64,000 nucleotides of DNA from Alphaproteobacteria bacterium (GTDB taxonomy: Bacteria; Pseudomonadota; Alphaproteobacteria; UBA6615), in assembly GCA_028279245.1 (NCBI GenBank), contig JANQOE010000003.1:1-64000 (forward strand). The letters are read 5' to 3'. The position numbers were made by a program, and so were the translations under genes. Below are positions 7,829 through 11,696 of this stretch, one piece after another (the first letter of the stretch is position 1; every line of letters begins with the position of its first letter). Below the pieces are notes generated by a model. That model searched no databases. It saw only the letters and a program-made list of their open reading frames with translations, and had not been told where the DNA came from.

Positions 7829-9034
<1,206 letters not shown>

Positions 9035-9118
9035 CCATGGCCGATTAGCCTGGACTCGGCTCCGCGCTGGTGAAACCATGATGGTCTAAAGATGAACTAA
9101 TCAAAAGGAGGGACCATC

Positions 9119-11146
9119 ATGGCGGATGCAAACGGCGCCCGCTGCGCCGCTCTTGTCGGGCACTATCTCAGCGGCAAAACCACCTTGATGGAGGCTCTCC
9201 TTTATACGGCGAAGGCGGTGACCCGCAAGGGCACGACCAAAGAAGGCAACACTGTCGGCGACAGCAGTCCGGTCGCCCGCGCCCGTGGCATGAGTGTCGA
9301 GTTATCGGCCGCCCAGTGCCAGTTCATGGGCGACGGCTGGACCTTGATCGACTGTCCCGGCTCTATCGAGTTCGCGCAGGAAGCAACCAACGTCTTGCCG
9401 GTCGTCGACGTCGCCGTCGTTGTCTGCGAGGCCGATACCAGCAAGACCCTTGGCCTTGCCCCGCTGTTCAAGTTCCTCGACGACCACAAAATCCCGCACA
9501 TCGTCTACATCAACAAACTGGACCACCCCCACGCGCGCATTGGCGATGTCCTGGAATCGCTGCAGTCCGTGTCCCAACGCCCCTTGGTGCTGCGGCAAGT
9601 GCCGATCCAGGATGGCGATGCGATCACCGGCTACGTCGACCTGATCAGCGAACGCGCCTACTCCTACAAGCCGGGCCAGAGCTCGGCGCTGATCGAAATC
9701 CCCGACAGCATGCAGGACGAAGAACAGATCGCCCGCCAGGAGCTGCTCGAAGCCTTGGCCGATTTCGACGACAACCTCTTGGAACAACTGCTCGAGGACG
9801 TCGTTCCCGAAAAATCCGAAGTCTACAAACACCTGTCGTCCTCGCTTGCCAAGGACAGCGTCGTGCCGGTCTTGCTCGGCAGCGGCGAAACGATGAGCGG
9901 TGTATTCCGTCTCTGGAAATCATTGCGCCACGACACGCCGTCGGTCAGCACCACCGCCGCCAGCCGCGGCTTCAATCCGGGCAATGATGTCGTCGCGCAA
10001 GTCTTCAAGACCCACTACGCCGCCCACACCGGCAAGCTCAGCCTGGCCCGGGTCTGGAGCGGCGCCATTGCCGAAGGCAGCCACCTCGCCGGCTCCCGCG
10101 TCACCGGTCTTTACAGCCTGTTCGGCGAGAAGCACGAAAAGATCAGCAAGGCCGGCCTCGGCGCGGTCGTCGCGCTGGGCCGCTTGGAGTCAGTCGACCG
10201 CGGTGATGTGCTGACCGCCGAAGGCAAGGGCGAAGCCGGTGATCCGCTTCCCGAGCCACTCGAACCGGTATACGGGCTCGCGGTAAACACGGCGAAACGG
10301 GAGGACGAGGTAAAGCTGAGCGGTGCGGTGCAGAAGCTGGTCGAGGAAGACCCGTCCTATCGCATCGAGCACAACCCCGACACCCATGAAATGGTCCTGT
10401 GGGGCCAGGGTGAGATCCACATCGCCGTGGCGCGCGAAAACTTGCAGCACAAATACAATATCGACGTCACCCTGCGGCCGCCGCAGGTGCCCTACAAAGA
10501 AACCATCCGCAAACCGATCGAACAGCATGCCCGCCACAAAAAACAGTCCGGCGGCCACGGCCAGTTCGGTGACGTGAAGGTGGAGATCAAGCCCCTTGCC
10601 CGTGGCGTCGGTTTCGAGTTCAGCAATCGCATTGTCGGCGGCGCGGTCCCCCGCCAGTTCATTCCGTCGGTCGAGGCCGGTGTCCGCGAGTATTTGAGCC
10701 GCGGTCCCCTCGGCTTCCCCGTCGTCGACTTGACCGTCTGTCTATTCGACGGCCAATTCCACGCCGTCGACAGCTCCGACCAGGCGTTTCGCACCGCCGC
10801 GGCCATAGCCATGCGCGAAGGCATGCCGAAGTGCAATCCGGTGCTGCTGGAACCGGTGTGCAAGGTGGAAATCGACGTGCCCAGCGATCAGACCAGCCGC
10901 GTCAACACGCTGATCACCGGCCGTCGGGGCCAGATCCTCGGCTTTGACGCCAAACCGGGCTGGTCCGGCTGGGACACCGTGCAGGCCTATATGCCACGGG
11001 CCGAGATGCATGACCTGATCATCGAACTGCGGTCGCTCACCCAGGGTGCGGGCACCTTCCGGTTTGAGTTTGACCACCTGGCCGAACTCGCCGGGCGTGA
11101 AGCCGATCAGATCGTCGCGGCCCGTCAGGAGGCCCTGGCCGCCTGA
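9119..11146 (+). CDS. Elongation factor G-like (FusA2-type) GTPase
   Basis: 675 aa with EF-G domain order; G1 GHYLSGKTT, G3 DCPGSIEF, G4 NKLD; strong RBS aaaaggaggg upstream. Confidence 0.9.
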   Translation: MADANGARCAALVGHYLSGKTTLMEALLYTAKAVTRKGTTKEGNTVGDSSPVARARGMSVELSAAQCQFMGDGWTLIDCPGSIEFAQEATNVLPVVDVAVVVCEADTSKTLGLAPLFKFLDDHKIPHIVYINKLDHPHARIGDVLESLQSVSQRPLVLRQVPIQDGDAITGYVDLISERAYSYKPGQSSALIEIPDSMQDEEQIARQELLEALADFDDNLLEQLLEDVVPEKSEVYKHLSSSLAKDSVVPVLLGSGETMSGVFRLWKSLRHDTPSVSTTAASRGFNPGNDVVAQVFKTHYAAHTGKLSLARVWSGAIAEGSHLAGSRVTGLYSLFGEKHEKISKAGLGAVVALGRLESVDRGDVLTAEGKGEAGDPLPEPLEPVYGLAVNTAKREDEVKLSGAVQKLVEEDPSYRIEHNPDTHEMVLWGQGEIHIAVARENLQHKYNIDVTLRPPQVPYKETIRKPIEQHARHKKQSGGHGQFGDVKVEIKPLARGVGFEFSNRIVGGAVPRQFIPSVEAGVREYLSRGPLGFPVVDLTVCLFDGQFHAVDSSDQAFRTAAAIAMREGMPKCNPVLLEPVCKVEIDVPSDQTSRVNTLITGRRGQILGFDAKPGWSGWDTVQAYMPRAEMHDLIIELRSLTQGAGTFRFEFDHLAELAGREADQIVAARQEALAA

Positions 11147-11173
11147 CATTTTCCCTTGAATCCCGCTGCCCGA

Positions 11174-11206
11174 CCGCCTAAATTAGAATAATTCTAATTT
11201 AGGCGG
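11174..11206. promoter_or_regulatory. Perfect 33-bp palindrome with Fur/Irr-family-like core upstream of dps
   Basis: ccgcctaaattagaat-a-attctaatttaggcgg: 16-bp perfect arms around a central A; core TTAGAAT-A-ATTCTAA fits a 7-1-7 Fur-family layout and the TTAGAA-N3-TTCTAA Irr/ICE form. Confidence 0.8.
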
Positions 11207-11213
11207 GGTAGAG

Positions 11214-11696
11214 ATGAACCAGACCTCCCAACCGATCGACATCGGCATCGATACAGCGGATCGCGAAGCCATTGCCGCCGGGCTCTCCCGGCTCTTGGCC
11301 GACAGCTACACCTTGTATCTGAAGACTCACAACTTCCATTGGAACGTCACGGGGCCGATGTTCAACACGCTCCACCTTATGTTCGAGACCCAGTATACGG
11401 AGCTGGCGGCGGCGGTGGACGAGATCGCCGAACGCATTCGCGCCCTGGGCCACCCGGCCCCTGGCAGCTATGCGGCCTACGCGAAACTGACGTCGATTAA
11501 CGAGGAAGAAGCCGTGCCGGCGGCTGAAACGATGATCGCCCAACTCGTCGCCGGACAAGAAACGGTTGCTCGCACCGCGCGGGAGGTCTTCCCGACCGCG
11601 GAAAAGGCGGGTGATGAACCGACCGCCGACCTACTAACCCAACGCATGCAGATCCACGAAAAGAATGCGTGGATGCTGCGCAGTATGCTGGCCTAG
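11214..11696 (+). CDS. dps: Dps family DNA starvation/ferritin-like protein
   Basis: [44 protein letters not shown] is the Dps signature. Confidence 0.96.

Follow-up and report, generated by a model that had tools for sequence, protein, structure and literature searches.

An unusually symmetric palindrome over the predicted dps promoter of a poorly studied alphaproteobacterial lineage is most likely an Irr box

A long perfect palindrome lies directly upstream of dps in the 64,000-nucleotide stretch of alphaproteobacterial DNA analyzed here (the window). Does it serve as a DNA operator, as an RNA element or as a terminator of the preceding gene, and, if it is an operator, which regulator owns it? 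The features that bear on this question are as follows.

9119 to 11146, forward strand: EF-G-like gene (PRK12740.1-3 type, from family profile matches), upstream of dps and the source of any read-through RNA
11156 to 11161, forward strand: putative -35 element TTGAAT, at the distance from the box that TTGNAN has in relatives
11174 to 11206, no strand: perfect 33-bp palindrome with arms of 16 and a centre of 1, as read from the sequence
11179 to 11184, forward strand: putative -10 element TAAATT (TATATT or TATATC in relatives), after a 17-bp spacer and overlapping the left arm
11183 to 11197, no strand: candidate Irr-box/ICE core TTAGAATAATTCTAA (7-1-7), present once in the genome, conserved before dps and a class-wide marker of targets
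11205 to 11209, forward strand: putative, weak Shine-Dalgarno-like GGGGT
11214 to 11696, forward strand: dps, encoding a Dps/ferritin-like protein of 160 aa (PF00210, 100 bits), the putative controlled gene

The palindrome, CCGCCTAAATTAGAAT-A-ATTCTAATTTAGGCGG, has arms of 16 nt that are 100% complementary around a single central nucleotide, and 7 bp separate its end from the dps ATG at 11214, both as described in the first-pass annotation of this DNA. The 7-1-7 Fur-superfamily layout that the same annotation had recognized in the core was likewise confirmed. Its further proposal, that the core fits the ICE form TTTAGAA-N3-TTCTAAA, holds for 6 of the 7 positions in each half of the window's core and for all 7 in the relatives G004 and G008. 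The exact core TTAGAATNATTCTAA occurs only once in the whole genome. At the window GC content of 64%, i.e., a probability of 0.27 per symmetric pair, perfect arms of at least 16 with a centre of 0 or 1 nt are expected ~1e-4 times per 64 kb and 0.007 times per 4.34-Mb genome, and the former value rules out a chance palindrome. After this one, the longest perfect odd palindrome of the window reaches arms of only 8 bp, and the nine symmetric pairs added to the 7-1-7 core have a probability of ~7e-6 given that core.

In order to compare the regions upstream of dps, a check that the first-pass annotation had itself proposed, Dps orthologues were gathered from 24 genomes of the family, with identities of 71-79% in 11 family genomes. 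The core, with zero to three mismatches, was kept before dps in the window's genome (G000) and in each of the 10 relatives from the family whose close orthologue is intact. The eleventh relative, G012, has a stop in the dps reading frame and a best site with four mismatches, and no core was found upstream of two divergent Dps genes (45-46% identical). Typically, the box of the relatives reads CTATAT, TTAGAATAATTCTAA, A, with the core fused to the -10 element, and most of them carry a TTG ~28 bp before TAGAA at fixed spacing, like the -35 element of the window. In a scan of genome contigs, several other alphaproteobacteria, among them Nitrospirillum (L121), also had a box ahead of dps; the beta- and gammaproteobacterial records of that scan yielded no box with zero to two mismatches. 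Conservation does not extend to the long outer arms, since six to eight symmetric pairs or an imperfect core are found before the relatives' dps. The short symmetric core of the relatives sits farther from the start codon, and their upstream genes differ. A 12-pair version of the palindrome is present in 2 of 385 genomes, i.e., the window's own and G015. As an extension specific to this lineage, the outer arms (CCGCC...GGCGG) are not required for the conserved operator. We conclude that positions 11174-11206 hold a true regulatory site that is conserved and is most likely an Irr box. As an element it is of a known kind, notable for its unusual extended symmetry and for the apparent peroxide-defence regulon around it. 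With regard to gene order, an aminotransferase gene, the EF-G-like gene and dps follow one another at 7832-11696 of the window, and in G022 (L026) dps apparently comes straight after this aminotransferase gene ends; the EF-G-like gene was therefore either inserted in the window lineage or lost in G022.

A plain sigma-70 consensus scan called no promoter at the putative -35 and -10 elements of dps. The predicted start nevertheless falls in the centre of the palindrome, because the conserved -35/-10 arrangement positions it there; this promoter anatomy would place it at ~11190-11192, on the palindrome axis. Given that the same geometry is conserved in the orthologues, the promoter and the predicted start overlap the box before this iron/peroxide gene. 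Our preferred reading, to which we assign a probability of roughly 0.83, is that the palindrome is an Irr operator that covers the -10 element and the start site of a sigma-70-type promoter dedicated to dps, where it would repress this gene. The Irr/ICE operator had been suggested in the first-pass annotation and is strongly supported by the conservation upstream of dps, the promoter geometry, the identity of the other box-bearing genes and the linkage of the box to irr. We infer Irr binding, repression as its sign, and iron/heme and H2O2 as its signals. When iron or heme is scarce and peroxide is low, Irr would occupy TTAGAATAATTCTAA and shut out RNA polymerase. A rise in heme or iron, or H2O2, would lead to the inactivation or degradation of Irr and hence to the induction of dps, the ferritin-like product of which would store iron and consume peroxide.

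The palindrome had also been proposed to act at the RNA level, with arms that span the ribosome-binding site. This latter claim was only partly right, because the arms do overlap GGGGT, but only by the last two palindrome bases. Positions 11166-11216, taken as RNA, have a predicted fold of -27 kcal/mol (z -7.2) in which the ribosome site is paired via CTGCCC/GGGTAG, as might be expected if a hairpin in read-through RNA hid the dps ribosome site and insulated dps from the EF-G-like operon, a role that could coexist with an operator. However, RNA folding is to be expected of any long DNA palindrome, and the predicted native start removes this hairpin. Because that start falls inside the palindrome, the dps mRNA would retain the right arm only, and the transcript from the inferred promoter folds no better than shuffled sequences (z 0.4). 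Moreover, the arms are not conserved in the relatives, which combine a short core with different upstream genes, and we regard the read-through hairpin as very improbable. It could form only in an EF-G-like read-through transcript; insulation of dps from such RNA in this one lineage is possible but unsupported. A search of Rfam gave no match at the palindrome. A cis-acting RNA switch or thermosensor was rejected as the main role on the grounds of the hairpin missing from the predicted native mRNA, the unconserved arms and the Rfam result. The remaining proposal, that the palindrome terminates transcription of the EF-G-like gene, draws on its strong stem and its position 28 bp past the stop of that gene. 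This GC-rich stem has no U-tract on either strand, the terminator scan called nothing there and Rfam was again empty; a Rho-independent terminator was thus rejected, leaving this explanation with hardly any probability.

To return to the Irr operator, the exact 15-mer occurs in 11 copies among the 24 family genomes, compared with none for the reversed control. Ten of these copies precede dps (3), katG (3), peroxiredoxin (3) or catalase (1), and the eleventh, in G015, has no evident target. Across 190 genomes of the class, the 15-mer was found in 35 and the reversed control in two. Its presence followed that of Irr, with 32 of 113 Irr-positive but only 3 of 77 Irr-negative genomes carrying it (Fisher p 7e-6, with kinship ignored). 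Nine of 39 class-wide sites lie ~10-175 bp downstream of the irr 3' end, and most of those whose context was read are followed by rubrerythrin. Gene context was read for 30 of the sites, and the gene that follows is dps, rubrerythrin, katG, peroxiredoxin, catalase, mbfA or sufB at 23 of them; mbfA (562 bits, cut-off 450) follows one class-wide site. The box is thus shared with other Irr-type targets and conserved over orthologous promoters, consistent with an Irr box/ICE.

The window's genome contains two next-best matches to the core, one between irr and rubrerythrin and the other inside a gene. The rubrerythrin-side site (L081:3427-3439, i.e., G000:C1:15926-15938) resembles an Irr box and lies directly upstream of a -35-like TTGACT. 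Unlike the dps box, it does not cover the -10 element, a layout that is repeated in G011 and G014. Besides this site, there are one near-match with two mismatches and twelve with three, compared with seven for the reversed control; these were rejected as operators, being mostly intragenic or far from plausible targets and likely due to chance. Elsewhere, exact cores in L208, L215, L218, L229 and L230 precede genes for an RpoH-like sigma factor and an ArsP_2 exporter, a PvcA-like gene, and cysteine desulfurase/hydrolase pairs. From their sequence context, these may be new Irr targets or chance matches.

The window's genome encodes four Fur-superfamily proteins i.e., Fur, two Zur-like proteins and one Irr. 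The last passes both equivalog cut-offs (NF045678, 203 bits against 150; NF045677, 183 against 170), and its gene lies between fabA/fabB and rubrerythrin. The Zur-like genes are located at G000:C35:67813-68154 and G000:C119:5402-5761, one adjoining a CobW-type GTPase gene and the other an ABC transporter ATPase gene. The presence of Fur and two Zur-like proteins in the same genome, and of the box in three genomes with no detected Irr, counts against Irr as the owner. Another member of the superfamily, either Fur itself or a PerR-like paralogue, might own the operator instead, given that 7-1-7 symmetry is common to Fur and PerR boxes. The Bacillus subtilis mrgA(dps)/katA regulon carries the PerR box TTATAATNATTATAA, from which the dps core is one symmetric base apart. 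However, the presence of the box tracks Irr, boxes adjoin irr and mbfA is among the targets. Furthermore, none of the four Fur-superfamily proteins of the genome reaches the cut-off of a PerR model. We therefore consider another owner within the superfamily to be unlikely.

The assignment to Irr is also consistent with the known systems. Irr of Rhodobacter sphaeroides binds the mbfA promoter, and the start mapped for this gene falls within the Irr box, an arrangement that was read as repressor geometry (PMC3413700). In Bradyrhizobium japonicum, bfr, mbfA and sufA are Irr-repressed (PMC4902296). The window resembles the Irr box/ICE systems of R. sphaeroides mbfA and of B. japonicum bfr and mbfA in having an A/T-rich TTTAGAA-N3-TTCTAAA-type palindrome over the start of an iron-storage/export gene, an encoded Irr and repression geometry, with the start in the window being a predicted one. 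It differs from them in that its box precedes dps and is set within a perfect palindrome with 16-bp arms. It shares with the PerR box of B. subtilis the 7-1-7 symmetry, the dps/catalase/peroxidase targets and the iron-ligand residues common to Irr and PerR. It differs from that system in the G/C that its core has at position 4 in each half, and in its regulator, which belongs to the Irr clade and has no C-terminal zinc-cysteine site. All five PerR ligand residues (His37/Asp85/His91/His93/Asp104), with which PerR binds iron and senses H2O2, are kept in this Irr and in all 23 other alphaproteobacterial Irr proteins aligned. The Irr of B. japonicum reportedly has them too, and H2O2 oxidises that protein at the equivalent of PerR His37 (PMC4700492). 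The heme regulatory motif of the B. japonicum protein, GCPWHD, is absent from Irr of the window's genome.

Peroxide-responsive control of dps and katG is also exerted by OxyR in Escherichia coli and Magnetospirillum, although OxyR is a LysR-type activator and its system has no 7-1-7 palindrome. The OxyR of the window's genome could also act on dps, which is a point against the Irr model. Proteins with the OxyR redox motif GHCLRDQ..C are encoded in 4 of the 24 family genomes (G000, G001, G013 and G020), each beside katG/catalase, and OxyR was rejected as the owner of the box on this distribution. The OxyR-type gene of G000 (L199, G000:C81) is divergent from katG, where no Irr box was seen; a second OxyR-like paralogue in this genome (L194, G000:C56) lacks the first redox cysteine. 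Irr boxes precede katG/catalase in G002, G003, G004 and G008, in which no redox-motif OxyR was found. The mutual exclusion of an adjacent OxyR and an Irr box at catalase/katG is a lead drawn from small numbers and incomplete genomes. Carried further, it would make Irr the main peroxide repressor of the family, with a PerR-like regulon (dps, katG/catalase, peroxiredoxin, rubrerythrin) that swaps with OxyR, catalase having an Irr box in genomes without a true OxyR and none where oxyR adjoins, and with the extended palindrome as a high-affinity box for two or more Irr dimers. We offer this wider scheme only tentatively, as it is rather more likely to be wrong than right.

The proposed Irr operator provides dps of a poorly studied alphaproteobacterial lineage with a candidate regulator, a putative promoter and likely signals, and it suggests that Irr, which is known mainly for iron/heme, represses peroxide-defence genes where a lineage has no OxyR. 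An Irr regulon was reportedly predicted by Rodionov et al. in 2006. Since bfr and mbfA are established targets of Irr, the present case is an extension that was largely to be expected, not a surprise. Its key prediction is that H2O2 relieves Irr binding at the dps, katG, prx and rbr boxes.

An Irr operator alone does not explain why the outer-arm symmetry runs past one dimer site. One explanation compatible with such an operator is that a template-switch (quasi-palindrome) mutation made a shorter operator perfectly symmetric and left the outer arms as a by-product that added no function. The relatives' dps, where there is no extension and the right flank is not conserved, agree with this origin, but arms of 13-14 recur at 2 of 41 other boxes (L235 and L189), where the CCTwww flank is similar as well, and this hints that a long form may be preferred. 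On balance, we place the mutational origin slightly below an even chance. Altogether, arms of 13-16 were found in 3 of 42 distinct boxes i.e., that of the window, L235 before rubrerythrin and L189 without a clear target, and all three carry CCTwww outside the core. These are more than would be expected by simple chance, but the -10 element partly fixes the left flank and the numbers are small; a template-switch origin and an Irr site for several dimers are both candidate explanations. The L189 site (also L096; G015:C6:313087-313111) is an extended palindrome, CCTATATTAGAATCATTCTAATATAGG, that lies between convergent genes with no obvious target, and a small gene or RNA at this position is possible.
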